From Capitulum mitella (taxonomy: Eukaryota > Arthropoda > Thecostraca > Pollicipedomorpha > Pollicipedidae): 64,000 bases of DNA. Of this stretch, positions 2,442 to 49,251 are shown piece after piece. Positions within the stretch are counted from its first letter, which is position 1. Each line of letters begins with the position of its first letter. Under the pieces are notes generated by a model. That model was not told where the DNA came from, ran no database searches, and saw only the letters and a list, made by a program, of their open reading frames with translations. The DNA lies in NCBI GenBank assembly GCA_030062745.1, contig CP099845.1, positions 18,516,903 to 18,580,902 on the forward strand, in the 5' to 3' direction. A program made the position numbers and the translations under genes.

Positions 2442-3658
2442 TTAACCCGCGCACGACCGTCGGTCGGCGGGAATCACGTCCGACTGGGGGAGGGGGGCGG
2501 TTGACCGCCCCCCTCTAACTCACGAACGATTGGTCGCACGATAAAAAGAAGCTCGCCGTTGGAAAGCTTGTGACAAGTAGAGCTCGAAACTGGTCTTATG
2601 TTTAGTTTTGGATAATATAAAAGCCGTTTACTTCCTTTATATGTTTTTTAATAGCCCACTGCACGAGACCGAGAAACGGCCTGAATCTCAAGGGCTGTGA
2701 CTAGTAAAGCATAGGTAAAGGTACAAACGCACAGGTAAAGGTCCGCAGATGCCGATACACGTCTAATTTCTCTGATTTATTCAATATATACGCCGAAACG
2801 TTGAATTAAGAACATGGCAATTTTCACGCCAGTTATCGGCGGGCGTCGCAGCCGTACGCAGTAAGAAATAAGCGGGAACTAATTTTAGCGATCCCTTGTT
2901 TTCGCGGCGTAAACCTATCCATGTCAATTTTATTGATCTTAGTGGTTCTTGTGATGGTTTCTCATGCTTACATTTTGCGAAAATTCATTAGTTACCAATG
3001 TACACCATTGGCTGAGGTTTATTCGCGAGAGTATGTTTGTTTCCAAAACATGCAATTTTTTAAATTTTTTGAGGTTTTTGGTATTAATTGCGTTTGTGCA
3101 AGCCAGTTCTGCCATTTTCTATCCATTCTGAGTACTTCATCGCTGATTTTTGACGGTGGTACATTTTGGCTCACAACAGTTATTAGTGACCTGACATCAG
3201 GTCAATGGCTGGAAGTCATGAATGCTTTGCCCATTGACGGTAACTAAATGTCTGCATCACTCCACACTAAAAATATTATGAAAAATACCGTCAATATCCG
3301 AAAAAACGACATGTCTTAGGCATGGGTTTGACCTTAGGTCAATGACCCGTAAAATTTTGAAAAAATCTGAGATAGCAGATTTGTTGCATCTATCAAGATC
3401 TCTAGTCCCTGAAAGTAGCATTGTGATATCTTGTTTTCCGAAAAAGTGACAGGGCGCTAAATTTTTTTGGACATAGGTTCTCTTGACCTGGCCCAGGTCG
3501 GACACCTGACTTAACCTGAGCTCAGCACTTTGACACAAGGTGTAAAAATAATCAAGCAAAAGATGCACGAAGTTTCGTGGCACTGCATTTGTTCGTTCTC
3601 TCGCAATGCTAAGAAAAACCCCAGGGGGTCGGTCAATCCCCAGCTGGGGACGGGTCAA
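2442..3658 (+). mobile_element. family B piggyBac-type MITE, copy B1
   Basis: Begins TTAACCCGCGCACGACCG (TTAA at 2442-2445) and ends GGGTCAA (TCAA at 3655-3658, one change from TTAA). The interior aligns with B2, B3 and B4. It includes G-rich subterminal blocks near both ends, the 'CACGAACG.TTGGTCGCACGAT' block and several AGGTCA half-sites. It encodes no transposase, so it would need enzyme from elsewhere. The assignment to piggyBac type rests on the TTAA flanks and the CCC start of the inverted ends. Confidence 0.75.
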
Positions 3659-5939
3659 TGATGTGTATAGATGAGATATTACATGAACCGATGTTATACG
3701 ATTTTATGCCGCATCGTGTCTGAATAATGGTAATGCGGCAAATCATACGTTAAACACCAGAAACAACCGACGTATAGGCGTCAATACCTTGACCTGGGTT
3801 GACCTTATGGGACTTTAATATGATAACTGCCAGCTTTATATGCGTGCCAGACACATTTCCGGGGTATTGAAATCAAAATACATGGTATAGATTCAGAAAA
3901 ACGCGGCTGTTGCCTTGACGAAAAGACGATTTTTCCCTTCGTTTTCGGTTTTGTTTTTAATGGTGAATTTAAACCTTAAATGCCTTTTTCCACTACACGT
4001 AGATAAATCAGACATTTTTACTGGTAACCCTATTCTGTGCTCCTGTCCGATATCCAAGATTCCGTGGCTGGGGGAGCAGATTCCGTCCTCCCGAAGTGTT
4101 GATCCAATTTCCTAGCAGAAAACGGCGTCCGCAGCCTGTAGGAAGATCTACATTTCTAAAAAAGCATTGAGATTCTTGAAAAGGAGGATGGGGATCAAAA
4201 CGCTGATATCAATAGGGTTTTACTTAAACAAGTTTTCTGACCACATTTTACGACCGATTGTATTCTTCTTTCCGTCGTTCTACCGACAATTAATAGGTCT
4301 ATCGTACATGTTTAGAAGAGGTCGATTTTCGGAAATCTATAGCGCAGCCAGTGCACGTAAAAAGAGGTGTACGTTTTTGGGAAATGTTAATTCATTCTGC
4401 AAAATACTTTCAGTCTGCCGAACTTATCTGTGTTTGGAAAGCATTTCCCTGTGTGTTACGTTTCATGTCATATACTGCAATTGCCCATAGGCGAATCTAG
4501 TTACCACAAAAAGTAGGATAACTTTCCACACGATGAACATGATGGTTATTGGCTACCATATTCAAGCATGTTGTTAATATCATTTTGTGTTGTACTTGAA
4601 GCTCGCATTTTAATAACATTTTCGCATCACATTTTGAAATAATGGCATTAATAACGTAACCAGAACATAATAAAGGAGACATTTTCTCGGAAATGTGAAT
4701 TTTTTGTCGTATATTCTGAATTTGGTGAGCTTATGTGCGCCAGGAAAACATTTCCATGTGTGTCACATGCCGTATTATGCAGCACTGTAAGTGCCCATAG
4801 GCGGATGCAGGTATTAGAAAAAGAGGGACCAATATCCACGTGGGGACTGCCGTTTTATTCAGTAAATCAAGTCATAATTTTCATGAATAAAAACAAATGA
4901 AATACCCCATTTAACATTACACTAGAGTTGCCTCTGATTGTCGTGTTCACGGGAATATTTGGCATTTGATCGTAATATATATTGCACTAACAAAACCAGT
5001 CACACAGATCCCGATGTCTGTTAGGCCAACTGAACATGCTACTGGATGAAATATGCATCCCAAAACCGATGCCTGAAGACGCCCCTGGCAGTACGTCTAG
5101 GCGTATTACATGGTAAGATATCATAAATGTATCTATATCATACGTCAGCTTTGCACTATTCATATCATGGATCATGGATTCCTAGGAATATGAAAATATA
5201 AATGTCCACTTTTACATGCCCCTGGGTCCGCCATTGATCAACATGTTCTCTGAAAAATAACTTTAAATGTGAAGATTACGAGTATTTTGATCATTATCAT
5301 TATTCTGATTGTCCTTAGATGATATGCAAATATTTTAATGTATGATGATCACATACTGATAATCGCAGTATCCGTGACACTGTAAAGGGCATCGAAATAA
5401 CACATGGCCGCGTCGAACTACGCGATCTCCACAACGCACGATATTCCTAAAATATTCCCCCAAAACGTGTCCTGGAGCCATCTCTAAAAGAGGCAGTTTT
5501 CCAAAATTTTGTCACATGTGGAGAAAACTAGGAAAAACCACCATGTTTCTTCAAGTATCCCCCCAAAAAACGGGAATAGCGAGAGAAAAACCGGAGGAGG
5601 ATAGAATCTGCATTCCCCATGACGAAACTGGGTTAAATCCTTTGAGGCCACGTACAAACTTTGATTTTTACCGTTTTTTTCACAAAATGCAGAAATGGTA
5701 ATTTCACATCAGATGGCGCCTGGTGATATAACATTGATCCCATTGAAAGAAAAACCATCTTTGCTTTCTTCTAGTTGGTCTCAGGGCTTTCCAGTGATGC
5801 ATTTACTTTTTCTTTGGGACTTGTAGTTCTCGAGATCTTTAGTGGATCTCTCATAACCCCTTCCCGGCCGACTTAATTGAATCCGGAGGCCGGCCGGGCG
5901 AGGGTTGAGCTATGAAGACAAACATTGAAAAAATAGCAC
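3659..5939. other. intergenic, repeat-derived, no gene seen
   Basis: AT-rich sequence with a few AGGTCA-like sites at 3780-3830. A diverged tandem duplication at 4370-4830 is listed separately. The stretch ends with CGGGCGAGGGTTGA (to about 5918), which resembles the right terminus expected for family F (TTAACCCTCGCC...). No coding region was recognised. Confidence 0.45.
4370..4830. repeat. diverged direct duplication, period ~305 bp
   Basis: The segment around 4440-4510 (CATTTCCCTGTGTGTTACG ... TTGCCCATAGGCGAATC) recurs around 4747-4815 (CATTTCCATGTGTGTCACA ... GTGCCCATAGGCGGATG). The upstream blocks are also similar (GGGAAATGTTAATT versus CGGAAATGTGAATT). This is an old local duplication of non-coding sequence. 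Confidence 0.6.
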
Positions 5940-6742
5940 TTAACCCTATCCCCGGCAGGGGGGGCTGAATCCGCCCCACCTCGGGTTTTTTGCTTGCCAA
6001 GTCCAGGCTTTTTAGCGCAGCTTTACGAAACCTGATTACTTTTCCTAGCTATTTCTTCTACGTGCCGTGACGAAATTTCAAAATTCTATTTTGCTCAGGG
6101 GCGAAGCCAGGCAACGTTTTTGGGAGGAACCTCACGCCATTTTTGGCCATGTTGAAGGTAAAAAGAAAATAAATGCCAAAAACAGAGTTTTAAGATAGAA
6201 CTTAACACTTTATATGGATGTATAGCTAAATAGTTGGGCAATGTGCAGATATAATTTGGTTTATCTGAGGTCACTTTACAAGGTCAGGTCAACGCCAGAA
6301 ATCAAAATGTTTTTTGCAATAATTTCAGTACCATTTTTTCAAATGCCAAACCCGGAACATATATGACGTAAAAAGATGCCCTCTACTTGTGTATCAAGTT
6401 TCAGCTTGATATCAGGTCGGGTCACAGAGCTTTGACCTAAAATGTCAGTGCGCGTACCCTATATCGCAATAGCCATAAAATGAAATTTTTGAAATAAAGT
6501 AAGTTCAAATGGTCGAAAACGTTTACAGACTAATTTTAAATGCACACGAGATCATTCCAGGTGACCCCAAGGTCACTGGAGGTCATTTAAAGTCAAAGGT
6601 CACAAGTTGATCTGAAGAACATATGACCAGGACAGTTTCCCCTTTTTCATGTCCCTGGCACCGCCTATGCTAATATTATACAAACATTGTGATGCAATTT
6701 GTACTTTTTTAGCATAACATGAGTAGCAGAACCCAAAAAATA
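5940..6742 (+). mobile_element. family A MITE, 3'-truncated copy A1
   Basis: Starts TTAACCCTATCCCCGGCAGG and follows the family A sequence through the 'GCTCAGGGGCG.AGCCAGGCAACG' block and the AGGTCA-rich centre. It continues to the 'CATGAGTAGCAGAA' block, then stops matching at about 6742. The right third and right inverted end are missing. The following sequence (6780-7140) instead resembles family B. Confidence 0.75.
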
Positions 6743-6779
6743 ATATATAAAGAAATACTCGGCTCATAGATATAAAGTT

Positions 6780-7140: not shown

Positions 7141-8355
7141 TTAACCCTATTCCCGGAGGGCTAGACGGTATGGTCGATTCCCGGCAGGGGGGGCGGATTC
7201 GGCCCCCCTCCCTGAGATCTCAAGAACTACTTGTCCGATTTCATCGCAACAAACGGCAATGGATTCGCCGTGACGCGAACTACATTTTCATAAAAAGAAA
7301 TTTTCAAAATTTTGAAATGTGTGGATACAGGGGGCAAAAAGGTCAAAATGGGGGCTACTTTTGGACTTCTTATAACTCCGTTGTTTATGGATCGATTTCG
7401 ATGAAACTGGCATGAATCGAGAGATTATGGATAGAGCTTTTACTATGGGTCCGCAAATGTCAAATTTTGAGAAAATTCATGGGCGTTCACAGGGTTTCAA
7501 AAATAGCAGCATTAGTTTTCTAACAACTGAATGGAAAAAGAGGCAAACACCCTTTTTTGGCTTCTGCTAGTCATGTTATACTAAAGAAGTACAAATCGCA
7601 TTACAATGTTTGTATAATGTTAGCATAGGCGGTGCCAGGGGCATGAAAAGGGGGAACTGTCACGGTCACACGTTTCTCAGATCAACTTGTGACCTCTGAC
7701 CTTAAATGACCTCCAGTGACCTTGGGGTCACTTGGAATGATCTCGTGTACATTTAGTATTATCTGTAAACGTTTTCAGTCATTTGAATTCACTCTATTTC
7801 ACAAATTTCATTTTATGGCTATTGCGATATAGGATACGCGCACTGACATATTAGGTCATATCTCCGTGACCCGACCAGATATCAAGCTGAAACTTGATAC
7901 ACAAGTAGAGGGCATCCTTCTACGTGATATATATTCTGGATTTGGCAGTTGAAGAAATGGCGCCGAAATTATATCGAAAAAACAAATTTTGACTTTTGGC
8001 CTTGACCTGACCTTGTAAAATGACCTCAGATAAACAAAATTATATCTGCACATTGCACAAGTGTTTAGCTATACATCCATACAAAGTTTTAAGTTCTAGC
8101 TTTAAAACTCTGTTTTTGGCAGACATTTTCCTTTTACCCTGAACATGGCCAAAAATAGCATGAGGTGCCTTCCAAAAACGTTGCCTGGCTCCGCCCCTGA
8201 GCAAAATAGAATTTTGAAATTTTGTCACAGCACGTAGAAAAGATAGCTAGGAAAGTTATCAAGTTTCGTGAAGCTGCGTTAAAAAGCCTGGAATTGGCAA
8301 GCAAAAAACCGGAGGGGGGGGCGGATTCCGCCCCCCCTGCCGGGAATAGGGTTAA
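7141..8355 (-). mobile_element. family A piggyBac-type MITE, copy A2
   Basis: Complete. TTAACCCTATTCCCGG at 7141 and CCGGGAATAGGGTTAA ending at 8355 form a perfect inverted pair including TTAA on both sides. It carries the subterminal GC palindrome (GGGCGGATTCCGCCC) near 8315-8335. It has a DR1 site with a G spacer on the minus strand at 7690-7702. Its right TTAA is shared with B2. Confidence 0.88.
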
Positions 8356-9567
8356 CCCGCCCTCGACTGGGGGGGCCGATGACCGACTCCCTGAGGTTTT
8401 TCTGCGATTGTGAGCGAACGAACAAACAGAGCGCCACGAAAATTCGTGTATCTTTTGCTTGATTATTTTTACATCTTGTGTCAAAGTTTTGACCTCAGGT
8501 GAAGTCAAGTGTCTGACCTAGGTCAGGCCAAACGGACCTCTATGCAAAACGTTTAGCGCTGTGTAACCTTTTTGGAAAACAAGATATCACAATAATACTT
8601 TCAGGGATTAGTAATCTTGGTATATGCAATAAATCTGCTATCTCAGATTTTTTTCGGAATTTTATGGGTCACTGAGCTTAGGATAAACCTATTTTTAAGA
8701 CATGTCGTCGTTTTTTCGGAAATTGGCGGAATTTTTCATACCATTTTTAGTGTGGAGCGAAGCAGCCATCTAGTTACCGTCAATGGGTAAAGTATCGATG
8801 ACTTCCAGCGATTGACCTGAGGTCAGGTCACGAATAAATTTGCTAGTCAAAATGTACCGCCGTCAAAATCAGCGATGAATTACTCAGAATGGGTAGAAAA
8901 TGGCAGAAATGGCTTGCACAGGCGCAAGTTATACCAAGAACCTCAAAAAGTTAGAAAAAATAGCATATTCTGGAAATAAACAGGCTCTGGCAATTAAAGC
9001 TCCGTCAGTTGTGCAGATTGGTAAGTAATTAATTTCTCCAGAATTTAAGCATGAAGAGCCATCACAAGAATCACTAACATCAATAAAATTAACATGGATA
9101 GGCTTGCGTCGCGAAAACAGAGGAACGCTAAAATTAGTCTCCGCTAATTTCTTACTGCGTACGGCTGCGGCACCCACCGACAACCGGCGTGAAAATTGCC
9201 GCGTCTTTAACTCAACATTTCGGCGTATATGCTGAACAAATCTGAGAAATTAGACGTATATGGGCATGTGCGGACCTTCACTAGTACGTCGGTGACTCTA
9301 ACTATGCTTTATTATCCACAGTCCTTGAGATTCAGGCCGTTTCTCGGTCTCATCCAACCGGCTATGAGAAAACATATATAGGGCGTAAGTTGCTTAGGTA
9401 TTATTAAAACTAAAAATGAGACCAGTTTCGATCTCTAATCCTCACAAGCTTTCCAACGGTGTGCTTATTTTTATCGTGCGACCAACCGTTCGTGACTTAG
9501 CGGGGGCGGTCATCCGACCCCCCAGTCGAGCGTGATCGTCGCCGACCGACGGTCGTGCGTGGGTTAA
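8352..9567 (-). mobile_element. family B piggyBac-type MITE, copy B2, abutting A2
   Basis: Runs from the TTAA at 8352-8355, which is also the right flank of A2, to GGGTTAA ending at 9567. It reads TTAACCCGCCC...CGACCGACGGTCGTGCGTGGGTTAA, so it is inverted relative to B1, B3 and B4. The interior aligns with B1 throughout, and TGACCTGAGGTCA-type repeats are near 8812-8830. No coding sequence. Confidence 0.82.
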
Positions 9568-11595: not shown

Positions 11596-12846
11596 TTAAC
11601 CCTATTCCCGGCAGGGGGGGGCGGAATCCGCCTCCCCCTCGGGTTTTTTGCTTGCCAATTCCAGGCTTTTTGACGCAGCTTCACGAAACTTGGTGACTTT
11701 TCCTAGCTATTCCTTCTACGCGCCGTGACAAAATTTCGAAATTCTATTTTGCTCAGGGGCGGAGCCAGGCAACGTTTTTGGGAGATCAGGAGATCTCCCA
11801 AAAAGAGAAAATTTCGAGATCAGGTCATTTTTGGCCATGTTGAGGGTAAAAGGAAAATGTCTGCCAAAAACAGAGTTTTTAAGATACAACTTAAAACTTT
11901 ATATGAATATATAGCTAAATAGTTGGGCAATGTGCATATATAATTTTGTTTATCTGAGACCACTTTACAAGGTCAGGTCAAGGTCAAAAGTCGAAATTTG
12001 TTTTTTCGCAATAATTTCGGCGCCGTTTTTTCAAATGCCAAACCCGGAATATATATGACGTAGAAAGATGCCCTCTACTTGTGTACCAAGTTTCAGCGTG
12101 ATATCAGGCCAGGTCACGGAGCTATGACCTAAAATGTCAGTGCACGTACCCTATATCGCAAAGCCAAAAAATGAATTTTTTGGAATAGGGTGAATTTAAT
12201 CGATTAAAAACGTTTACAGATAATATTGAATGCACACGACATCATTCCAGGTGACCCCAAGGACACTGGAGGTCATTTAAGGTCAAAGGTCACAAGTTGA
12301 CCCGAGAAACGTGTGACCATGACAGTTCCCCCTTTTTTATGTCCCTGGCACCGCCTATGCTAACATTATACAAACATTGTAATGCAATTTGTACTTCTTT
12401 AGCATAACATGACTAGCAGAAGCTAAAAAAGTGTTTTGGCCTCTTTTGTTCATTCCGTTATTGGAAAACTAATCCCCCTATTTTTGAAACCCTGTAAACG
12501 CCCATGAATTTTCTCAAAATTTCAAATTTGCATACCCATGGTAAAAGCCCTATCCATAATCTCTCGATTGATGCCAGTTTCATCGAAATCGGTTCATAAA
12601 CAACGGAGTTATAAGAAGTCAAAAAGTACCCCCCCCATTTTGACATTTTTGCCCCCCTGTATCCACAAATTTCAAAATTTTGAAAATTTCTTTTTATAAA
12701 AATGTAGTTCACGTCACGGCAAATCGATTGCCGTTTGTTGCGATGAAATCGGATAAGTAGTTCTCGAGATCTCAGGGGGGGACCGAATCCGCCCCCCCCC
12801 TGCCGGGAATCGGCCATACCGTCTAGCCCTCCGGGAATAGGGTTAA
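11596..12846 (+). mobile_element. family A piggyBac-type MITE, copy A3
   Basis: Complete and well preserved. It begins TTAACCCTATTCCCGGCAGG and ends CCGGGAATAGGGTTAA, with TTAA on both sides. It carries a TCAAGGTCA site (11978-11986) and a perfect DR1 (12280-12292). At ~11785-11825 it has a private insertion containing a short inverted repeat around GGGAGATC...GATCTCCC and a duplicated GAGATCAGG. No protein is encoded. Confidence 0.9.
12280..12292 (+). promoter_or_regulatory. perfect DR1 nuclear-receptor-type site in A3
   Basis: AGGTCA-A-AGGTCA. The DR1 arrangement is the known binding form for RXR/USP-type and HNF4-type receptors. Sequence match only; no occupancy is implied. Confidence 0.5.
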
Positions 12847-18499: not shown

Positions 18500-19570
18500 T
18501 TAACCCTCGCCGGGCGTAGGCATTTTTACTACTGTTTCAAGCGACGGGGGAGCGGACCCCCCCCCCCCTTCGTTTCATTCCTAATTGAGCTAGAGCTGCG
18601 AAACAAATCGAACGTGTTGTCTGCCATTAGAGCAAGCAACAGCTATCCAGGTTTAAGATTTGGGCCAACCGTTGGCTTCCCAGGTTAGGCAATGACACGA
18701 AATTGGCGACAATGGCAAAACTTTTTGTCTGAAAGGACACACAACGCAAAATTTTACAATTAGAAACACCGCATAAGAAATATAGGACTCCGTGAATTCT
18801 TGCGGATCTAATAATACCCTTTATCGTTACTTGTGATCAATGAAATAAGTCAGCTCAGATCAAATCCCTTTACCGGCTGGGACGGTATGGAGTATAGACC
18901 CATATGGCTGCCATAAAATGAACCTAGATAACTGAAAATGGTGCAAAATGTATACCAAATTCGACAACAGTGTTAAAAAATACCATAATGTCCACCCGAG
19001 GTCAAAAAGGTCACTCATCCAGAGGTCAGTGATCTCTGCTCACCTCAGATGATCTTTGTTAACTGCGAGTCAAATCAGGTATTTGGGGGCGCTGATATGG
19101 AATTTGGCATCCATTTCGTATCATTCAGTTTATTTCATCCCAGGTTTTAGGTCATCCGAGGTCAGCCGAGTTCAGTGACCTCGGCGGACCTCAAGAGTCT
19201 TGAACTTAGTGGAGCTCATCATTGTGGTCCATTTACAACTAATTCGACGCCAAGCTGCCTCTTCAGTACGATTAAACTCTGCAAACCTTGGAATAAACGG
19301 TAAAATATAATAAATGTTAATAAAAATATAAATAAATGGAAAAAAGACGAAATAAAGTCGGGGTCTACCACGGCCAATAAAGGTCTCTTACCTGCCTTGA
19401 CCTCCAAATGTGACTAGATCATGCTACGCTGTGTGATTGTGGTGTTAGCTTTTCAAACCGAGGAAACATCAAATGTGCCGACAGCATCGGGTTACCTCGG
19501 AAATGCTAACATTTTTCCGCAAAACTGGTCTTTGGACCCCTGAGAATGGCGTCATATCTTCGCAACCTGA
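18500..19570 (+). mobile_element. family F fragment (TTAACCCTCGCC end)
   Basis: Starts TTAACCCTCGCCGGGCG, again a TTAA-CCC terminus like families A and B, followed by a G/C run and 'ATTGAGCTAGAGCTGCGAAACAAA'. That block is similar to one in 26455-26480. From 18980 to about 19200 it is dense in AGGTCA half-sites. A matching right terminus was not found, so the right boundary is approximate. Confidence 0.45.
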
Positions 19571-21462: not shown

Positions 21463-22424
21463 TTAACCCGCGCACGACCGTCGGTCCGTTTCGAACGTGG
21501 GCGACTGGGGGGGGGGGGGGCAGTTGGTTGTCCCCGCTCTAATTCACGAACGGTTGGTCGCACGATAACAATAAGCACGCCGTTGGAAAGCTTGTAACAA
21601 GTAGAGCTCGAAACTGGTCTCATTTTTAGTTTTGGATAATATGTAAGCCAATTTACGCCCTATATATGTTTTCTCATAGCCGACGCCATGAGACTGAGAA
21701 ATGGCCTGAATCTCAAGGGCTGTGACTAATAACGCATAGGCAAAGGCACCAGCGCATAAGTAAAGGTCCGCGGATGCCGATACACGTCTAATTTCCCCAG
21801 ATTTGTCCAATATATACGCCGAAACGTTCAGTTTAAGACACGGTAATTCTCCCGCCAGCTGTCGGTGTGCGCCGCTGCCGTATGCGGTAACAAATTGACG
21901 GGAACTAATTTTAGCCTTCCTTTATTTTCGCGAAAAGGACGATCTATGTCATTTTTATTGGTCTTTGTGGTTTTTGTAATGGTTTCTCATACTTAAAAAC
22001 TTATTTCCAAAATGTGCTAACTTTTCAAACTTTTTGAGGTTCCTGGTATTATTTACGTCTGTGCAAGCTGGTTCTGTCATTTTCTACCCATTCTGAGTAA
22101 TTCATCGTCGATTTTGACGGCGGTACATTTTGGCCCACTACAAATATTCATGACCTGACCTCAGGTCAATAGCTGGAAGTCACTGATACTTTGCCCAATG
22201 ACGGTAATTAGATGTCTACTTGATTGATGTTATGTTATGGAATATCCCGTCAATTTCCGAAAAAAACGTCGACATGTCTTAAAAAGGCTTGACCTTAGGT
22301 CAATGAGCCGGGAAATTCCGAAAAATATGAGATCGCAGATTTGTTGCATCTATCACGGTTGCTAATCCCTCAAGGTATTATTCAGATATCTTGTTTTGCG
22401 AAAAAGTTACAGGGCGCTAAACTT

Positions 22425-22463
22425 TTTTTGACATAAGTCTGTTTGACAGACTTATGTCAAAAA
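22425..22463. repeat. perfect hairpin 1 inside B3
   Basis: TTTTTGACATAAGTCTG pairs with CAGACTTATGTCAAAAA around a 5-nt loop (TTTGA), giving a 17-bp stem. B1, B2 and B4 show a linear AGGTC-containing sequence at this point, so the inversion is specific to B3. Confidence 0.9.
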
Positions 22464-22495
22464 GCCTGACCGAGGACTTATGTCCTCGGTCAGGC
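22464..22495. repeat. perfect hairpin 2 inside B3
   Basis: GCCTGACCGAGGAC pairs with GTCCTCGGTCAGGC around a 4-nt loop (TTAT). It abuts hairpin 1 directly and repeats the GACTTATGTC word of that hairpin. Confidence 0.9.
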
Positions 22496-22653
22496 GCCTG
22501 ACGTGACCTGAGGTCAAAATTTTGACACAAGATGTAAAATTGATGGAGCAAAAGGTACACAAAGTTTCGTGACTCTGTGTTTGTTTGTTCTCTCGCAATC
22601 CTAGAAAAACCTCAGGGGGGGGCAGTCAACTGTCCCTCCTGGGGACCGGTTAA

Positions 22654-25000: not shown

Positions 25001-26176
25001 TTAAGCGGAGGGTTAGACAGTATGGCCAATTTCCGGCAGGGGACGGATTCGGCCCCCCCCCTCCCTCGAGATCTCGAGAACTACACATCCGATTTTGTCG
25101 CAACAAATTGGAATCAATTTGCCATGACGTAAACTGCACTTAAAAAAATTAAAATGGAGTAAAAATATCAAAATGGGGGGTACTTTTGGACTTCTTATAA
25201 AACCGTTTTTTATGGACCGATTCCGATGAAATTGGCCTGAATCGAAAGATTAAAGATGAGACTTTCAAAATCGCTACACACATTTGAAATTTCGAGAAAA
25301 TTCATAGGCATTCACAGGGTTTCAAAAATAGGGGACTAGTTTTTTTAACAGCTGAATGAACAAAAAAGGCAAAAACATTTTTTTGGTTTCTGCTAGTCGT
25401 GGTATGCTAAAGAAGTACAAATCGTATTACAATGTTTGTATAATGTTAGCATAGGCAGTGCCAGGGGCATGAAAAAGGGGGAACTGCCATGGTCATATGC
25501 ACTTCAGATCAGCTTGTGATCTTTGACCTTATATGACCTCCAGTGACCTTGGAGTCACTTGAGATGATCTCGTGTGCATTTAGTATGATCTGTAAACGTT
25601 TTCAATCATTTGAATTCACTCTATTTCAAAGATTCCATTTTACTTTTTTGTGATATAGGGTACGCGCGCTGCCATTTTAGGTCATAGCTCCGAGACCCGA
25701 CCTGATGTTAAGCTGAAACTTGATACACAAGTAGAGGACACCCTTCTATGTCATATATATTCTGGGCTTAGAATTAAAAAATAGCGCCGAAATTATTACT
25801 ATAAAACCAAATGTTGTCTTTTGACCTTGATCTGAACTTGTAGTGACCTAAGATGAACAAAATTGTTTTTGAACGTCGCGCAACTATTTTGCTATATATC
25901 CATATAAAGTTTTAAGTTCTGTCTTAATAACACCATTTTTGGCAGTCATTTTCTTTGACCCTTAACAGGGCCAAAAATGGCCTGAGATGCTTCCTAAAAA
26001 CGTTGCCTGGCTCCGCCCTTGAGCAGAATAAAAGTTCGAAATTTTGTGACAGTACGTAAAACAATAGCTAGGAAACGTGACCAAGTTTCGTGAAGCTGCC
26101 TCCAAAAGCCTGGAATTGGCAAGCAGAAAACCCGAGGGGGGCGGATTCAGCCTCCCCCTGCCAGGGATAGGGTTAA
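25001..26176 (-). mobile_element. family A MITE, copy A8, inserted in the minisatellite
   Basis: Right end GGGATAGGGTTAA (TTAA 26173-26176) is intact apart from substitutions. The left end keeps TTAA (25001-25004) but lacks about nine bases of the inverted repeat, then continues GGAGGGTTAGACAGTATGGCC. It contains a minus-strand TCAAGGTCA (25822-25830). The DR1 position is mutated. The flanking minisatellite is the same on both sides. Confidence 0.8.
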
Positions 26177-26319: not shown

Positions 26320-27020
26320 TCAGGCCTCGGGGAGGGCGATCGCCGCTATCATCCCCACCTCCCTCGCGCCTGGTCGGAAGGGAGGGATTTTCACTCGCAC
26401 CGATGACGGGGAGAGAGAAAGCACTTCCCTCGCCATTTGGCCCCGAATTGAGCTAGCGCTTCGAGACAAACAGAAATCGATATCCGTGTGCCAAAGGAAT
26501 TCAACGGTACCCATGTTGATCCTGTCAGGTCAGCCATTGATCGCCTAGGTCAGGTCAAACTTGACACTTGACGACTATAAATCGATTTTGCTCTGTTAAA
26601 ACGACACATTTGTGGCCAAATAAGACTAAAATCTTCTAGTCAAAAATTAGTTAAGGAACGTCCTAAGGTTAAAAAGGTAATCTTAGGTCACTGACCTTGT
26701 CTGGCCTTGCAAAGGTCATTGGCCTATCTAAAGTGACCTGTTCGCATGTGGACTATCGTTCTGAACCGATTTCATGACCGTCACCGCCCTCAAACAGTGA
26801 AAAAAACGGCATTTGGCGCACAGTTCGCTCTGCAAGCTCTCAGTTATGACGTCATCGCTCGGTGCCCTGAGACAGGATGGGGCCACGCTTTTTCAAAACA
26901 TGCGCAACGAATGTGTCTTCAACTATGTCATATTTCATGGTGTTGACTTGCGCCGTTTCGCCGTAATCCAGGAAACACTGCTTGCGGGTGCATCCAACAC
27001 CGTCGTGCAACGAGGGTTAA
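26320..27020 (+). mobile_element. family F-related fragment
   Basis: Shares 'GAATTGAGCTAGCGCTTCGAGACAAA' with 18583-18606 and has AGGTCA-rich sequence at 26520-26740. It ends CGAGGGTTAA (TTAA 27017-27020), the reverse complement of the TTAACCCTCG start of F at 18500. The left inverted end was not found. Confidence 0.45.
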
Positions 27021-27920: not shown

Positions 27921-29033
27921 TTAACCCGCTCCCGACTGCCAGTCGGCGCCGATCACGCCCGACTGGGGGCATTGATCGCCCCTCTCTAACTCACGAACGG
28001 TTGTTCGCACGATAAAAATAAGCACCCAGTTGGAAAGCTCGTTACAAGTAGAACTCAAAACTGGTCTCATTTTCAGTTTTGCGTAACATATAAGCCATTT
28101 ACGCCCTATATATGTTTTCTCACAGCAGATTGTATGATACCGAGAAGCAGCCTGGATCTCAAGGGCTCTGATTAATACAGTCTAGGTAAAGGCACCAGCG
28201 AAGAGATAAAAGTCCACAGGCCTATATGCCTAATTTCTCCGATTTATCCAACATATACGCCGAAACAATGAATTAAAGACGCTGCAATTTTCGCGTGGAC
28301 TGCCGGCAGGCGCCGTACCCAAGCGCGGTATGCAATTAAAAGGAATTAATTTTAGTGTTTCTTTGGTTTTGCAGCATAAGCCTTTCCATGCAATATTTAT
28401 TGACCCTAGTGGTTTTTGTGACGGTTCCTCATGCCTAAATTCGGGAAAAATTCACTGGTTACCCATCCACTCAATTGGCGGAGGTTTATTCGCAAGAGCC
28501 TGTTTATTTTCAAAACATGCAATTTTTTAGACTTTTTGAGCTTTGTGGTAATATTTGTAACTGTGCGAGCCAGTTCTGCCATTTTCCACCCGCTCTGAGC
28601 AATTCATCGCCAATTTTGACGGCGATGCATCTTGGCTCATAACAATTATTTGTGACCTGACCTCAGATCAAAAGCTGAAAGTCACGAATACTTTGCCCGT
28701 TGACGGTAACTAGATGTCCGCATCACCCTACACTAAAAATGTTGCGAAAAAGCCCGTCAATGTCCGAAAAAAGACGACATGTCTCGAAAAAGGACTTGAT
28801 TGCGATGTCATGTTTTCCGAAAAAGTTACAAGTCGCTAAACTTTTTTGGACATAGGTCCGCTTTACCTGATCTAGGTCAGACACCTGACTTTACCTGAGG
28901 TCAAAACTTTGACACAAGGTGTAAAAATGATCAAGTAAAAAGTTTACGAAGTTTCGTGCCGCGCGTTTGTTTGTTCTTGCGCAATCTTGGAAAAACCTCT
29001 GGGGGTCAAACGCCTCCCCCAGTCGGGGAGAGC
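27921..29033 (+). mobile_element. family B MITE, copy B4, right end decayed
   Basis: Starts TTAACCCGCTCCCGACTG (27921) and follows B through the CACGAACGGTTG block, the 'TATACGCCGAAAC' block and the 'GACATAGGTCCGCTTTACCTGATCTAGGTCAG' region. The final inverted repeat and right TTAA are not recognisable. It has an internal deletion relative to B1 near 28800. Confidence 0.75.
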
Positions 29034-30705: not shown

Positions 30706-31923
30706 CTAACCCTATTCCCGGCAGGGGGGGGGGCGGAATCCGCCCCCCCCTCGGGTTTTTTGCTTGCCAATTCCAGGCTTTTTGACGCAGATTCACGAAA
30801 CTTGGTGACTTTTCCTAGCTATTCCTTCTACGCGCCGCGACAAAATTTCGAAATTCTATTTTGCTCAGAGGCGGAGCCAGGCAACGTTTTTGGGAGGCAC
30901 CTCAGGTCATTTTCGGCCATGTTGAGGGTAAAAGGAAAATGTCTGCCAAAAACAGAGTTTTTAAGATACAACTTAAAACTTTATATGAATGTTTAGCTAA
31001 ATAGTTGGGCAATGTGCATATGTAATTTTGTTTATCTGAGGTCACTTTAGAATGTCAGGTCAAGGTCAAAAGCAAAAATTTGTTTTTTCGCAATAATTTC
31101 GGCGCCGTTTTTCAAATGCCAAACCCGGAATATATATGACGTAGAATGGTTCCCTCTACTTGTGTAGCAAGTTTCAGCTTGATATCAGGTCGGGTCACGG
31201 AGCTATCACCTAAAATGTCAGTGCGCGTACCCTATATCGCAAAAGCCAAAAAATGAATTTTTTGGAACAGAGTGAATTCAATCGATTAAAAACGTTTACA
31301 GATAATATTGAATGCACACGACATCATTCCAGGTGACCCCAAGGTCACTGGAGGTCATTTAAGGTCAAAGGTCACAAGTTGATCTGAAGAACGTGTGACC
31401 ATGACAGTTCCCCCTTTTTTATGTCTCTGGCACCGCCTATGCTAACATTATACAAACATTGTAATGCGATTTGTACTTCTTTAGCATAACATGACTAGCA
31501 GAAGCTAAAAAAGTGTTTTGGCCTCTTTTGTTCATTCAGTTATTAGAAAACTAATCCTCCTATTTTTAAACCCTGTGAACGCCCATGAATTTTCTCAAAA
31601 TTTCAAATTTGCATACCCATGGTAAAAGCCCTATCCATAATCTCTCGACTGATGCCAGTTTCATCGAAATCGGTCTGTAAACAACGGAGTTATAAGAAGT
31701 CAAAAAGTACCCCCATTTTGATATTTTTGCCCCCTGTATCCACAAATTTCAAAATTTTGAAAATTTCTTTTTATAAAAATGTAGTTCACGTCACGGCAAA
31801 TCGATTGCCGTTTGTTGCGATGAAATCGGATAAGTAGTTCTCGAGATCTCAGGGGGAGGGCCGAATCCGCCCCCCCCTACCGGGAATCGGCCATACCGTC
31901 TAGCCCTCCGGGAATACGGCTAA
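30706..31923 (+). mobile_element. family A MITE, copy A4, flanked by CTAA
   Basis: Aligns with A3 end to end. Left flank is CTAA (30706-30709) before CCCTATTCCCGG. Right end reads CCGGGAATACGGCTAA with CTAA at 31920-31923. All other near-complete copies have TTAA or single-base variants. It carries TCAAGGTCA (31060-31068) and a perfect DR1 (31362-31374). It lies in the predicted intron of the Cys-rich secreted protein gene. Confidence 0.88.
31362..31374 (+). promoter_or_regulatory. perfect DR1 site in A4
   Basis: AGGTCA-A-AGGTCA, at the same internal position as in A3 and A5. Confidence 0.5.
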
Positions 31924-33722: not shown

Positions 33723-35247
33723 AAGATGCTTTGGGCACGTTCCACACCGTATTTTCTGGACTCAGGGCTATTGACTGGTGGTGGATTGGTTCAGATACGA
33801 CGATCATATCCCGAAATAACAGAGGCTGCCGTTTTTGACACCTTCCAGGCGGTGGAGGGTATAAAAACACGCCAGCGGTGCCGGGTTAAGTGAAACAGCA
33901 TTTAATCCGCTCGTGATGGAGCGTTTTTCACCACACCTGTGGTTTTTCTTACATGCATGGAAAAGGCAGTAAGTCTGGGGAAAATCTTCCATAGTATCTT
34001 TTCCCCAAGTAAACGTGCGTAGAACGGCGAAAGATCACTGCAATCGGACGATAAGAATGGACACTACGGCAAAATGAGTCTTGTTCCGAGGGGGCCGACA
34101 CGCCGGCCGGCCAGCTCATCGGCAGGCCGAACCGCAGAAAATGGCCGGACAAATCGGCGCACCGCCCGCCTGATTCCGCCATGTGTCGCCAGTGACGGAT
34201 CCACGGGAGGGTGGGGGGTGCATGCACTTTTCCCCTTTCCAGGTCAGTGCACGTGGTAAATTGTCAGTTGAGTACTTACGGTCAGTTCCTGCACTGTCCG
34301 TGCACCACGTCCCCATTTTCAGAATCGTGGGTCCGCCTTTGGTGGAAACGGAAGTGGGCAGATAACTGAGCATTTTTCCGCCCTAAAATGACGGGAAAAA
34401 CAAGACAGCAGGAGCGAGCAACTCGCTAGCAATGTATGATTGACACACGTTGACTTAAAAATTAACTTAAATAGGTCACGCTCATTGTTTTTACACATTA
34501 TCACTGTAACAATACGGCCAGGATGACGCCTGCGAAATTCCATGCAAATGTGTCGGTAAACAGCCAAGATATGGACCTTAAACTCCAGTGACCTGTGTTG
34601 ACCCTAACATTGATCCCAGTCGGTTACATACATATTTCGTGTTTCTTTTTGATGTCATAATGTTTCAAGCTTTCTGCGTGCAAAATTTTACGCCAATATG
34701 TCAATAAAAGGTCATAAGGTCATAAGGTCGATAAAAATAAAAATCAAGTCGATAAAAAGTGGTAGCCCCCTAGCTGATTAGTTCGGGTAGGATTTGGAAG
34801 CCCATCAGTGAGCAGGTCAAATATGACTTCTTTTCGAAAACACAGGTGCGCCATAATGTAAACAAAATTGCGCTAATTTTGGGTTGCATAGCTCAGCACC
34901 CCACATTATATCCGAATACTTCCAACAACTAAATGTATTAATATATATAACAAATGCATTCGCCTACAGAAAATATGACTATTCGAAGTTCTTGTGATTC
35001 ACTAAAACAATTCATGCAGTTTTAAATGTGCATGACGATGTCGCGTGTTTTTTTTAGGACATGAGGGATACTAAACAAATAATGGTACATCAAGGCATAT
35101 AAATCATTTAAATATGAAGGTGTATGAATATCAAAGTAAAGGTATATAAATCAGCTCCTAGTTTCTCGTCGATTGCAGGTACCGAGGAACTAACGGCATC
35201 CTGACAGAAACGGTGGGTTTTACGGCATTTGTTGCCTTTCATTTCAG
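33723..35247. other. intronic or intergenic, no exon seen
   Basis: Holds a TATAAAA-containing motif at ~33860 without a nearby start. A GGATCCACGGGAGGGTGGGG block at ~34197 resembles transposon termini but has no partner. AT-rich sequence fills 34600-35160. A second acceptor-like AG at ~35179 precedes a frame that stops at once in phase 0. Confidence 0.4.
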
Positions 35248-38463: not shown

Positions 38464-39684
38464 TTAACCCTATTCCCGGCAGGGGAGCTGAATCCGCCCC
38501 CCCCTCGGGTATTTTGCTTGCCAATTCCAGGCTTTTTAACGCAGCTTCACAAAACTTGCTCACTTTTCCTAGCTAATTTTTCTACGTGCCTTGACAAAAT
38601 TTCAAAATCCTATTTTGCTCAGGGGTGGAGCCAGGCAACGTTTTTGGGAGGCACCTCACGCCATTTTTGGCCATGTTGAGAGTAAAAGAAAAATGTCTGC
38701 CAAAAACAGAGTTTTAAAGATAAAACTTCAGACTTTATATGGATGTATAGCTAAATAGTCGGGCAATGTATAGATGTCATTTTATTTATCTGAGGTCACT
38801 TTACAAGGTCAGGTCAAGGCCAAAAGTTGAAATCTATTTTTTTGCAATAATTTCGGCGACGTTTTTTCAAATGCCAAACCCGGAATATATATGACGTAGA
38901 ATGGTGCCCTCTACTTGTGTAGCAAGTTTCAGCTTGATATCAGGTCGGGTCACGGAGCTATCACCTAAAATGTCAGTGCGCGTACCCTATATCACAATAG
39001 CCTTAAAATGAAATTTTTGAAATAGAATGAATTAAAATAATTGAAAACGTTTACAGATAATATTAAATGTACACGAGATAATTTCAAATGATCCCAAGGT
39101 CACTGGAGGTCATTTAAGGTCAAAGGTCACAAGTTGATCTGAAGAACGTGTGACCATGACAGTTTCCCTTTTTTCATGTCCCTGCCACCGCCTATGCTAA
39201 CATTATACAAACATTGTAATGTAATTTGTACTTCTTTAGCAAAGCATGACTAGCAGAAGCCAAAAAAGTGTTTTGGCCTCTTTTGTTCATTCAGTTGTTA
39301 TAAAACTAATCCTCCTATTTTTGAAACCTTGTGAACGCCGATGAATTTTCTCAAAATTTCAGATTTGTGTACCTATGGTAAAAGCCCTATCCATCAGTCC
39401 TCGATTCATGCCAGTTTCATTGAAATCGGTCCATAAACAACGGAGTTATAAGAAGTCCAAAAATACCCCCCATTTTGACATTTGTTGCCCCCTCTGTATC
39501 CACACCTTTCAAAATTTTGAAGATTTTTTTTTTGTAAAAATGTAGTTTACGTCACGGCAAATCGATTGTCGTTTGTTGCGATGAAATCGGACGAGTAGTT
39601 CTCGAGATCTCGGGGGGGGGGGGCCGAATCCGCCCCCCTGCCGGGAATCCACCATACCGTGTAGCGCTCCGGGAATAGGGTTAA
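38464..39684 (+). mobile_element. family A piggyBac-type MITE, copy A5, nested in D
   Basis: TTAACCCTATTCCCGGCAGG at 38464, GGGAATAGGGTTAA ending at 39684, TTAA on both sides. Carries a perfect DR1 (39117-39129). The TCAAGGTCA position has one change (TCAAGGCCA). Nested insertion shows A was active after D inserted. Confidence 0.9.
39117..39129 (+). promoter_or_regulatory. perfect DR1 site in A5
   Basis: AGGTCA-A-AGGTCA, at the same internal position as in A3 and A4. Confidence 0.5.
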
Positions 39685-41450: not shown

Positions 41451-42665
41451 TTAACCCTATTCCCGGAGGGCTAGACGGTATGGTCGATTCCCGGCAAGGG
41501 GGGCAGATTCGGCCCCCCCTGAGATTTAGAGAACTACTCGTCTGATTTCATCGCAACAAACAACAATCGATTGGCCATGACGTGAACTACATTTTTACAA
41601 AAAAGAAATTTTCAAAATTTTGAAAGGTGTAGATACAGGGGCAAAAATTTCAAAATGGGGGTATTTTTGGACTTCTTATAACTCCCTTGTTTATGAACCG
41701 ATTACAATAAAACTGGCATGAATCGAGTGATTATAGAAAGGACTTTTACCATGGATACACTAATCTGAAAATTTGAGAAAATTCATGGGCGCTCACAGGG
41801 TGTCAAAAATAGGAGGATTGGTTTTCCAACAACTGAATCAACAAAAGAGGCAAAAACACTTTTTGGCTTCTGCTAGTCATGTTATGCTAAATAAGTATAA
41901 ATCGCATCACAATGTTTGTATAATGTTAGCATAGGCGGTGCCAGGGACATGAAAATGGGAAAACTGTCATGGTCACACGTTCTTCAGATCAACTTGTGAT
42001 CTTTGACCTTAAATAATCTTCAGTGACCTTGGGGTCACTTGAAATGATCTGGTGTGCATTTAATATTATCTGTAAATGTTTTCAATCATTTGAAACTCTA
42101 TTCACTCTATTCCAAAAATTTCATTTTACGGCTATTGTGATGTAGGGTACGCGCACTGACATTTCAGGTCATAGCTCCGTGACTCGACCTGATATCAAGC
42201 TGAAACCTGATGCACAAGTAGAGGGCACCGTTCTACGCCATATATATTTGGCATTTGAAAAAAACGGCCGAAATTATTGCAGAAAAAAACAAATTTTGAC
42301 TTTTGACCTTGACCTGACCTTGTAAAGTAACCTCAGATGAACACAGTTACATCTGCACATTGCCCAACTATTTAGCTATACATCCATATAAAGTTTTAAG
42401 TTCTATCTTAGAAATGCTGTTTTTGGCAGTCATTTTTCTTTTACCCTGAACAGGGCCAAAAATGACCTGAGGTTCCTCCCAAAAACGTTGCCTGGCTCCA
42501 CCCCTGAGCAAAATAGAGTTTCGGAATTTCGTCACGGCGCGTAGAAAAAATAGCTAAGAAAAGTGACCAAGTTTTGTGAAGCTGCGTCAAAAAGCCTGGA
42601 ATTGGCAAGCAAAAAACCCGAGTGGGTGTGGATTCAGCCCCCCCCCCTGCCGGGAATAGGGTTAA
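41451..42665 (-). mobile_element. family A piggyBac-type MITE, copy A6
   Basis: TTAACCCTATTCCCGG at 41451, CCGGGAATAGGGTTAA ending 42665, TTAA both sides. Carries TCAAGGTCA on the minus strand (42304-42312). The DR1 position reads TGATCTTTGACCT, one base off. Confidence 0.9.
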
Positions 42666-44784: not shown

Positions 44785-45610
44785 AAAAAAAGAGCAGCCG
44801 ATTCGAGACATTCGACACATGCGATATATTCGGTTGTATAGTTGACAGTCGATTCAAGGCATTCGGCACTTTCGACACATTCCCCATGTATAATTTGCAG
44901 CCGATTCGAGACAACTGGCACCTTCGACAAAGCTACCGTGCATTGTTTGCAGCCGATCTGAGACATTCGATACATTCGATACATTCACTGTGTTTAGTTT
45001 GCAGCCGATTCCAGACGTTCAGCACATTCCATACAATCACTGTGTATAACTTGCAACCGATTCAAGACTTCGTCACATTCAATACATTCACCGTTGGCAG
45101 CCGATTCGAGACGTTCGACACATTTGACGCATTCACTGTGTGTTGTTTGCAAGAGATTGGAGACATTCGACACATTCGATACGTCCACTTTGTAGAGCTT
45201 CCAGTCGATTCGAGACATTCGACACATCCGACACATTCACCACTCGGCCGATTCGAGATATTCGACACATTCGATGCATTCATCGCGTGTAGTTTGCAGC
45301 CGATTCAAGACAGTCGCGGTGTAGATCGCAAGACGCATTCGCAAACCATGCACGGTGAACGTATCGAATGTGTCAAACGTCTCAAGTCGACTGGAAACGG
45401 TACTCGGCGAACGTACTGAATGTGATGAATGTCTCACATTAGCTGTAAGCCACACACGCTAAATATATTGAATGTGTCGAATGTATCATATCGGCTGAAA
45501 ACTATACACGGTGAATCTATCGCATGCGATGAATGTCTCGAATCGGCTGACAACTTTACCATTTTGATGACTGTATCGAATGTGTCGAATATCTCGCATC
45601 GACTGCTAGC
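44785..45610. repeat. minisatellite with orientation switch (large inverted repeat)
   Basis: From about 44795 to 45315 units of ~50-58 bp read GCCGATTCGAGACATTCG, ACACATTCGATACATTCAC, TGTGTATAGTTTGCA. From about 45345 to 45605 the same units appear as reverse complement (GAATGTGTCGAATGTATCAT, ATCGGCTGAAAACTATACAC, GGTGAATCTATCG). The switch lies in 45315-45350. At least ten forward and four reversed units can be seen. Open frames in both directions are artefacts of the repeat. Confidence 0.85.
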
Positions 45611-47113: not shown

Positions 47114-47244
47114 CCAGTCAGCTATGTGGGCACGTCCTAACGCCAGGAGGCGCCCGCTCCAGCAGCGCCCAGCCTAGGGCCAGTCAGCTATGTGGGCACG
47201 TCCTCACGCCAGGAGGCGCCGCTCCAGCAGCGCCCAGCCTAGGG
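47114..47244. repeat. 65/66-bp tandem duplication across the lectin stop codon
   Basis: CCAGTCAGCTATGTGGGCAC ... CAGCCTAGGG at 47114-47179 is followed directly by a copy at 47180-47244 with one substitution and one indel. The right copy contains the lectin's TAG stop (47239-47241); the left copy lies in the 3' UTR. Confidence 0.92.
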
Positions 47245-47721
47245 CATGGCGGCCATCTTGCAGACGAAGTTGCGCTCGGTGTCGCAGACCTCGTCGTCCC
47301 ACTGGCCAGTGGCCGGGTCGACGCCGTCCGGCATGTGCACGCAGTCCTGGTCGTGGTAGTTGTCCGGCTGGTCGACGGCCCAGTAGGTGAAGTCCACTGA
47401 CGAGCCGTCCGCCCACACGAACTGGCCCTCCTCCTGCGTGTCGCTCAGGCCCAGCCACATGTCCATCTGCGAGAAGGTCTGCACGATCCAGGCGTTCTCC
47501 AGCAGGCTGTGCACCGACACCAGCGACGAGTTCGGCTCGATCGCCGCGCAGGCCGGCGACGCCTGAGCCCACGACGTCTTGAACGTCGAGTACCAGTAGC
47601 AGAAGCCGTTGTTCTCCTGCCAGTCGTGCGTGGTTGGGCAGGCGCCGAGGGCCACGTGCAGTGACAGCGAGGCGACCAGCAGCGGCGCCAGCAGCCGCAC
47701 GCAGGAGTGCGCCACCTTCAT
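47239..47721 (-). CDS. secreted single-domain C-type lectin (160 aa)
   Basis: Minus-strand frame, ATG at 47721, TAG at 47239. Residues 1-26 are a signal peptide. The rest is one complete long-form C-type lectin domain with six cysteines (28, 41, 58, 127, 146, 154), expected to pair 28-41, 58-154 and 127-146. Hallmarks are WLGLSD (89-94), QPD (118-120) and WDD (141-143, in the place of the usual WND). In this family QPD favours galactose-type ligands and EPN favours mannose; the calcium-binding set looks largely retained. One N-glycosylation sequon is at N64. Such proteins act outside the cell in carbohydrate recognition, often in innate immunity of arthropods. The coding part is one exon. A TTTCAG acceptor-like site at ~47748 suggests an intron in the 5' UTR. 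Family assignment is firm; ligand is inference. Confidence 0.93.
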   Translation of the reverse strand: MKVAHSCVRLLAPLLVASLSLHVALGACPTTHDWQENNGFCYWYSTFKTSWAQASPACAAIEPNSSLVSVHSLLENAWIVQTFSQMDMWLGLSDTQEEGQFVWADGSSVDFTYWAVDQPDNYHDQDCVHMPDGVDPATGQWDDEVCDTERNFVCKMAAMP

Positions 47722-48034
47722 GATCTGGTCTCGGCCCTTTGAAATGCCTGAAAGTGGTCATGGTCTTGTGCTCAGTATCTGTCACAATTCATGGTCTTCA
47801 CAGTTTGGGTTACGTATTTATTTGGTCGGGCAACGTTTGTTGCACGAAGTTTTTGGACTGTGAAATGCAGATTTCGCAAAAAATCGGACGTAAATGAGTT
47901 TCTTTACTAAGGTAAATAAGTTCGTTTTTTAATCCTAAGAATTCGCATTGGCAAAGTAGAAACATACAACAAAGGATCTGTATGTGAAATGACATATATT
48001 GAGAAACATTAAAATGAAAGCATTAAAAGAAAGA
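47722..48034. other. 5' flank of the lectin gene
   Basis: On the minus strand contains the CCACTTTCAG acceptor-like site just upstream of the start codon. No TATA box was confidently located. Confidence 0.35.
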
Positions 48035-49251
48035 TCAACCCTATTCCCGGAGGGCTAGACGGTATGGTCCATTCCCGGAGGGGGGGGGGGGCGGATTCGG
48101 CCCCTCCCTGAGATCTCGAGAACTAAAGATCCGATTTCATCGCAACAAACGGCAATCGATTGGCCATGACGTGAACTACATTTTTATAAAAAGAAATTTC
48201 CAAAATTTTGAAAGGTGTGGATACAGGGAACAAAAACGCCAAAATCATGGGTATTTTTTAACTTCTTATAACTCCGTTGTTTATAGACCGATTTCGATGA
48301 AACTGGTGTGAATCGAGAGATTATCGATAGGACTTTTACCATTGGTACACATATCTAAAATTTTGAGAAAATTCATGGGCGTTCACAGGGTTTTAAAAAT
48401 ACGAGGGCTAGTTTTCCAACAACTGAATGAACAAAAAACGCAAAAACACTTTTTTGGCTTCTGCTAGTCAAGTTGTGCCAAAGAAGTACAGATCGCATTA
48501 CAATGCTTGTATAATATTAGCATAGGCGGTGCCAGGGACATAAAAAAGAGGACTGCCATGGTCACACGTTCTCCAAATCAGTTGTGACCTTTGACCTTAA
48601 ATGACTACCAGTGACCTTGGAGTCACTTGGAATGATCTCGTGTGCATTTAATATTATCTGTAAACGTTTTCAATCATTTGAATTCACTCTGTTTCAAAAA
48701 TTCCATTTTACGGCTATTGTGATATAGGGTGCCCGCACTGACATTTCAGGTCATAGCTCCGTGACCCGACCTGATATCAAGCTGAAACTTGGAGCACGGG
48801 TGAAGGGCTCCTTTTAGGTTATATATATTCCGGACTTGGCATTTAAAAAAATAGCGCCGAAATTATTACTAAAAAAACAAATTTTGACTTTTGACCTTGA
48901 CCTGACCTTATAGAGCGACCTCAGATAAACAAAATTGTATTTTCACGTTGCTTAACTATTTATCCATACAATCCTACAAAGTTATGGATTCTACCTTAAA
49001 AACACTATTTTTGGCAGCCATTTCCCTTTTACCTTCAACAGGACCAAAAATGGACTGAGGCGCCTCCCAAAACCGTTGCCTGGCTCCGCCCCTGAGCATA
49101 ATAGAGTTTCGGAATTTTGTCACACTACGTAGAAGGAATAGCTAGGATAAGTTACCAAGTTTCGTGAAGCTGCGTCAAAAACCCTGGAATTAGCAAGCAG
49201 AAAACCTGAGGGGGGGACAGATTCAGCCCCCCCTGCCGGGAATAGGGTTGA
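48035..49251 (-). mobile_element. family A MITE, copy A7
   Basis: TCAACCCTATTCCCGG at 48035 and CCGGGAATAGGGTTGA ending 49251, so TCAA on the left and TTGA on the right. Carries TCAAGGTCA (48892-48900) and a perfect DR1 (48585-48597), both on the minus strand. Confidence 0.88.
48585..48597 (-). promoter_or_regulatory. perfect DR1 site in A7
   Basis: Plus strand TGACCT-T-TGACCT, i.e. AGGTCA-A-AGGTCA on the minus strand, at the family's conserved position. It lies about 870 bp upstream of the lectin start codon. Confidence 0.5.

Follow-up and report, generated by a model that had tools for sequence, protein, structure and literature searches.

Phased arrays of putative nuclear-receptor half-sites in several TTAA transposon families of an arthropod genome

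Transposable elements (TEs) that disperse receptor sites are already known, the primate Alus among them. The human genome holds 108,582 consensus DR2 elements, 90% of which reside in Alus, and several of these retinoic acid response elements are described as recruiting receptors in vivo (Laperriere 2007, PMC1785376). Like the elements described here, Alus are non-autonomous and have spread many thousands of perfect half-site repeats. The Alu is, however, a retroelement with one dominant arrangement, described as having arisen largely by CpG decay (PMC1785376), whereas the present arrays are multi-site, advance in ~150-bp steps and belong to several families of TTAA DNA transposons, as read from sequence alone. 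HNF4alpha sites occur in Alu and Tigger repeats (Bolotin 2011, PMC3252374), and as in our case the TEs that contain the receptor-type sites include DNA transposons (the Tiggers); binding was measured in that system and its abstract describes no phased array, whereas our data consist of sequence only. At zygotic genome activation in mouse embryos, the half-site-type pioneer receptor NR5A2 engages TE motifs and nucleosomes: it is described as binding nucleosomal motifs and targeting SINE B1 (PMC11102866). As SINE B1 is a mouse SINE this is a mechanistic analogy only, and it serves as the precedent and model for the mechanism proposed below. The Acropora CMITEs likewise show TTAA target duplication, piggyBac-type ends and division into several families, and are described as having different ends around a common interior with an unexplained origin (PMC2872659). 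They measure ~100 bp with a conserved 75-bp interior, whereas the present elements measure 0.9-1.25 kb and have a spaced word in common, not a sequence block. Finally, the non-autonomous Cg_HINE Helentrons of oyster contain internal repeats of 140-180 bp; these are genuine tandem repeats of a satellite-like kind, their carriers are rolling-circle elements, and 'nuclear receptor' is unmentioned in the available part of that source (PMC7492417). What appears to be new in our case is the combination of several TTAA families, arrays of multiple geometries and nucleosome-length steps, at this scale in an arthropod. Among the titles and abstract openings listed for open-licence papers on receptor sites and TEs, none describes such an array, which is weak evidence.

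The stretch of DNA that was analysed (the window, 64,000 nucleotides) contains eight copies of family A, an element of ~1.2 kb with the structure TTAA / CCCTATTCCCGG ... CCGGGAATAGGG / TTAA. This full structure is seen in A3 (11596-12846, +). Of the six copies with both ends, four are flanked by TTAA on both sides, namely A2 (7141-8355, -), A3, A5 (38464-39684, +) and A6 (41451-42665, -), while A4 (30706-31923, +) lies between two copies of CTAA, a variant target that was duplicated, and A7 (48035-49251, -) has the ends TCAA ... TTGA. A1 (5940-6744, +) is without its right part and A8 (25006-26176, -) has TTAA at the 26173 end and a degraded opposite end. Elsewhere in the genome, the A ends stood beside TTAA at seven of eight loci that had been selected by their DR1, in one of these seven with a substitution. 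The terminal inverted repeat, CCCTATTCCCGG / CCGGGAATAGGG, measures 12 bp and carries single substitutions in some copies. A terminal inverted repeat of 12-19 bp with a CC[C/T]T end is given as characteristic of piggyBac-type elements (PMC2872659). Family A combines such an inverted repeat with a TTAA target site duplication, and we classify its copies as piggyBac-type non-autonomous elements. The longest of the stop-to-stop frames listed for A3 comprises 137 aa and has no Pfam match, and no Pfam family was matched by ten window ORFs either, several of which lie inside A or B copies; family A thus has no transposase of its own. A genome search with A3 gave 5,820 candidates at first look, and scoring was carried out on the best 40 of these. 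By eye, A-like sequence was also recognised in two of four contig-end stretches, the terminal 1.2 kb of C9 and of C16, and no telomere repeat was found in the three contig ends that were readable.

The half-sites of family A are arranged as DR4-DR4-DR1 plus an overlapping run. In A3 the first cluster is AGGTCAGGTCAAGGTCA (11970-11986, +), which includes TCAAGGTCA at 11978; the second has the form AGGTCA ... TGACCT (12111-12130, +); and the third exact cluster (12270-12292, +) consists of AGGTCA followed by AGGTCAAAGGTCA at 12280, a DR4 and then a DR1. An earlier note on this DNA had reported perfect DR1s in A3, A4, A5 and A7, a G-spacer version in A2, and perfect TCAAGGTCA sites in A3, A4, A6, A7 and A8. 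All of these were recovered exactly where reported: AGGTCAAAGGTCA at 12280, 31362 and 39117 (+) and 48585 (-), the G-spacer DR1 at 7690 (-), and TCAAGGTCA at 11978 and 31060 (+) and at 25822, 42304 and 48892 (-). Both lists could be extended by one site, a DR1 with the sequence AGGTCAnAGGTCA at 52476 and a TCAAGGTCA at 36755. A count against shuffled sequence gave six DR1s versus 0.01 expected (100 dinucleotide shuffles) and six TCAAGGTCA sites versus 0.61 expected. The half-site AGGTCA itself occurs 146 times versus 26.8 expected, a number that none of the 100 dinucleotide shuffles reached. Nevertheless, these shuffle tests overstate independence, because the A copies are relatives that lie 5-18% apart; all eight align over ~1.2 kb. 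The DR1 occupies a single column block in this alignment, perfect in A3, A4, A5 and A7, with a G spacer in A2 and with one half-site broken in each of A1, A6 and A8; it therefore reflects common descent and counts once. Independent support for the site excess comes from its recurrence in other families and genome-wide.

Family B is represented by B1 (2442-3659, +), which starts with TTAACCCG and has its half-site clusters toward the right end, B2 (8352-9567, -), B3 (21463-22653, +) and B4 (27921-29032, +). All four carry TTAACCCG or TTAACCCA at one end; the other end is TTAA in B2 and B3, TCAA in B1 and degraded in B4. The majority sequence of ten B fragments contains three perfect TGACCTnAGGTCA palindromes with the spacers C, T and G, all of which are retained in B3. 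Family C consists of C1 (1530-2431, +; right limit approximate), with clusters near 1683, 1849, 1998 and 2157 and thus gaps of 166, 148 and 159 bp, and C2 (32841-33744, +), which is 36% diverged from C1 and has one exact half-site remaining. Element D (18500-19403, +; right limit approximate) starts with TTAACCCTCG, and element F (26360-27020, +; limits approximate) has distant similarity to D and holds the only IR1 arrangement of the window, at 26685. Three further stretches with approximate limits are G (34241-34819, +), an AGGTCA cluster with uneven spacing, H (51996-52488, +), which holds the sixth DR1 at 52476, and I (54502-55553, +), the longest ladder of the window, with clusters near 54643, 54793, 55097, 55261, 55404 and 55545. 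At one end each, D starts with TTAACCC and C1 with TTAACC, and F ends in a reversed TTAACCC; several families have a palindrome of a G-run and a C-run near one end. In profile searches, A proved linked to B by the terminal ~150 bp (E about 1e-6), and a longer match of ~300 bp linked B to C (E between about 1e-17 and 1e-21). Different families were seen to abut end to end at TTAA sites: A2 and B2 are joined at one common TTAA (8350-8356), and B1 starts just past C1 (2431-2445).

The families that were defined by self-similarity hold 60 (A), 22 (B) and 8 (C) half-sites versus 3.7, 1.8 and 0.8 expected. Outside the ladder intervals, of which D, F, G, H and I were themselves picked by AGGTCA clustering, the window contains 21 half-sites versus 18.3 expected.

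Genome-wide, with the reversed pattern as control, we counted 7,332 DR1s (AGGTCAAAGGTCA) versus 55, of which 5,116 stood in an exact family-A context, 14,445 everted ER1 palindromes (TGACCTnAGGTCA) versus 41, 32,896 DR4s versus 499, 3,219 IR1s (AGGTCAnTGACCT, e.g. C1:163148) versus 46 and 2,230 DR8s versus 176. The AGGTCAnTGACCT motif is what we take to be an ecdysone-type response element, putative here. Among 100 DR4 matches listed there were 44 different spacers, and 36 rows were of the A type; the same matches included a (GGTCA)n-like tandem stretch of overlapping AGGTCAGGTCA runs at G000:C1:111538-111683. The commonest close arrangements in a genome sample of 200 kb (twenty 10-kb stretches whose coordinates were fixed, blind to the motif) were overlapping half-sites (12), DR4 (12) and ER1 (7), whereas DR1 was present twice. 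The constant is the half-site and not a single dimer geometry, with DR4 and ER1 well above DR8. These counts corroborate the earlier view of transposons dispersing nuclear-receptor sites, in that the elements are of mobile type, abundant and carriers of perfect sites of this type. Regarding the receptors that it had put forward, both DR1 and TCAAGGTCA are indeed enriched, but neither the USP/HNF4 nor the Ftz-F1/ERR type is singled out, given that the DR1 is mostly confined to family A and that the bases preceding the half-sites of the family representatives showed no Ftz-F1/ERR-type consensus. The DR1 as common theme and the flanking extension of monomer receptors as general rule were accordingly rejected; in the sample, TCA precedes 17 of the 204 half-sites and is the second commonest triplet there. 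Given the mixed geometry, no particular receptor is indicated.

The feature that does recur between families that barely align is a ladder in which half-site clusters follow one another at intervals of ~150-165 bp. In eight representatives (the A and B majority sequences, C1, D, F, G, H and I; C2 and a three-site stretch near 36752 being omitted) the periodicity peaked at 155 bp, which was equalled by none of 400 random placements. AGGTCA ranked first among the 48 hexamers that were sufficiently frequent, the next three overlapping it, and is the only one with at least four copies in all eight representatives (runner-up, four of eight). The 200-kb sample gave a z of 8.8 at 155 bp when pairs were taken as independent; masking of A, B and C reduced the signal to about zero at 150 bp and left a peak at 160-170 bp (mean cosine 0.26-0.37). 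Fifteen groups of at least four half-sites hold 90 of the 204 half-sites in the sample, where random placement puts 20.6 on average and 41 at most in such groups (500 trials); six of the groups lie in A, B or C and nine elsewhere, the latter with cluster gaps of 109-212 bp. Similarly, the first 81 ER1 places listed (contig 1) gave 32 adjacent distances below 700 bp, of which 24 measured 131-183 bp, seven 320-346 bp and one 221 bp, so that 31 of the 32 fell within 130-190 or 300-350 bp; many of these places resemble family B. Stretch G is irregular, with spacings of 101-124 and 232 bp.

Whether the clusters also occupy corresponding positions in different families is less clear. A CAYGAAACTT box lies near one end, and the first exact cluster follows ~77-80 bp inward in B and C1 and ~262 bp inward in A; clusters are found at 262/416/566 bp from the box in A, 80/244/387 in B and 77/244/392/551 in C1. 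With boxes chosen by eye the distances are 416/567/804 in D, 85/249 in F and 97/247/551/715/858/998 in I, while G gave no fit. A box-anchored register between families is suggestive only; in D, F, G and I the box itself was selected by eye, and outside A, B and C the sample is too thin for the box test. When half-sites were masked as N before aligning, the A-C1 and B-C1 registers looked convincing, but after overwriting the half-sites by random letters p < 0.05 was reached in 0 of 15 (A-B), 1 of 15 (A-C1) and 5 of 15 (B-C1) trials. This control removed A-B and A-C1 and weakened B-C1, and a strict register of A with B or C was rejected; cluster register between families is at best weakly supported.

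Half-site columns change at 0.58 (A) and 0.66 (B) times the base-matched expectation, a reduction of 34-42%. For A, 56 changes were observed in 970 cells versus 96.3 expected (circular-shift p 0.008) in a set of 22 copies or fragments, comprising the eight window copies, eight rows from seven of the eight DR1-selected loci, whose DR1 columns were excluded from the count, and six from the sample; when the set was halved by age, younger and older copies alike showed the reduction (shift p 0.015 and 0.033). The ten B fragments showed 35 changes in 478 versus 53.4 expected (shift p 0.027). These p-values are optimistic, since changes common to a subfamily are counted repeatedly. The earlier note had counted decay at the neutral rate in older copies among the outcomes that would speak against a role of the sites; the half-sites do change more slowly than their background, albeit modestly, and in the window copies alone the difference is not significant (A, eight copies, shift p 0.094; B, four copies, 0.092).

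The genome contains at least 118 matches to the piggyBac transposase domain (DDE_Tnp_1_7). Ten of these loci were read, of which eight have TTAACC ends, CCCATTAACGCCC or CC[CT]-A/T-TTAGTGCCC, and two showed no ends; CCCTATTCCCGG ends were found in none of the ten. The same ten loci hold 27 half-sites in 40.9 kb, or 0.66 per kb, versus 1.02 in the sample. Within the window, an A-like element at 4026-5637 (-) gave profile matches to both A ends and contains no exact AGGTCA; as judged from these matches, it shows that A-type ends can occur without the ladder, and it provides a natural negative control. Together with the half-site-poor piggyBac loci it indicates that neither A-type ends nor the piggyBac transposase requires the ladder. 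All 64 candidates for zf-C4 receptor-domain exons were scored, giving 49 matches, none of which pointed to a transposon-amplified receptor domain; a transposon-borne receptor DNA-binding domain was rejected, as comparison by eye placed every zf-C4 match more than ~60 kb away from the piggyBac matches listed. The cuticle domain Chitin_bind_4 gave 150 matches, equal to the number scored of 627 candidates, and identifies the host as an arthropod, and therefore as moulting. Scans of viral and prokaryotic contigs returned 5, 0, 0, 1 and 7 matches, and no element was seen around L001, the one match inspected. RNA families gave no match at the gathering threshold.

As for neighbouring genes, a C-type lectin frame at 47239-47757 (-) is unbroken (Lectin_C, E 2e-20). 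The DR1 of A7 lies 864 bp upstream of the lectin ATG (47721), in agreement with the ~0.9 kb given earlier for A7; this distance holds for the site and not for the element, whose edge at 48035 is separated from the ATG by just ~0.3 kb. An enhancer function of A7 near the lectin is speculation. The window further contains a 52-bp tandem repeat (44794-45316, ~10 copies, 69% matches) outside the AGGTCA ladders and a partial nucleotide-sugar transporter gene at 62358-63002 (-; Nuc_sug_transp, E 1.5e-15).

The reading that we prefer, and to which we give an even chance, is that several piggyBac-type families are present whose lineages kept phased half-site arrays, with host nuclear receptors as the putative readers. 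The array would be retained in source elements through its binding by host nuclear receptors during element movement, in the germline or early embryo, and this binding would open chromatin for the transposase. With nucleosome-length spacing, a nucleosome positioned over the array would cover a cluster, and the bound factors could cooperate against nucleosomes. Considering that a 147-bp nucleosome is too long to fit between bound clusters that lie ~150 bp apart, centre to centre, cooperative opening would be favoured. The dispersal of receptor sites near genes would be a by-product, its use by the host optional. A bolder version, which we regard as rather unlikely, holds that a superfamily of TTAA transposons parasitises host nuclear receptors: arrays with one cluster per nucleosome length would raise transposition as openers of germline or embryonic chromatin, and would in this way have seeded tens of thousands of receptor dimer sites in several geometries throughout the genome, including some three thousand perfect ecdysone-type palindromes.

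Two other explanations deserve consideration. The ladder could be a neutral relic of one ancestor with ~150-bp AGGTCA tandem units that was dispersed by hitch-hiking and is functionless, an explanation we consider improbable. Tandem units of 140-180 bp are described for other non-autonomous elements, the oyster Helentrons (PMC7492417). Moreover, the regions between clusters score 25.7 on average across families versus 19.0 for mononucleotide shuffles, a similarity that suggests remote common ancestry. It is nevertheless AGGTCA alone that is kept at four or more copies in every representative, in families that otherwise barely align, and the slower change of the half-site columns also argues against a relic. 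Next in rank, and doubtful too, is the possibility that the clusters serve to bind the transposition machinery itself, a cognate transposase or accessory protein, much as repeats in internal or subterminal position do in other DNA transposons, the likeness to receptor sites being coincidental. The confinement of the excess to repeat elements would fit such a role, bearing in mind that AGGTCA clustering had guided the choice of five intervals, as would the threefold TGACCTnAGGTCA palindrome in the B majority sequence and the position of the array nearer one element end. On the other hand, direct, everted and inverted orientations are all found among the half-sites, combined with many different spacings, which is also true of receptor sites; the A-like element at 4026-5637 has none, and the ten of 118 piggyBac loci are poor in them, the latter being a weak point as their ends differ from those of A. 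Chance or base composition as the source of the motif excess has practically no probability left and is refuted by the shuffles and by the reversed-pattern controls, which DR1, ER1, DR4 and IR1 exceed 66-352 fold.

Several gene-free elements, present in thousands of copies, may have spread ready-made putative receptor sites. If host nuclear receptors do not read the arrays, the counts caution against calling AGGTCA repeats in genomes of this kind hormone response elements. If, as in our preferred reading, they do, a flood of sites borne by transposons would have reached the hormone and receptor networks of the host, and the ~150-bp steps would offer a natural setting in which to test whether receptor clusters cooperate through nucleosomes.
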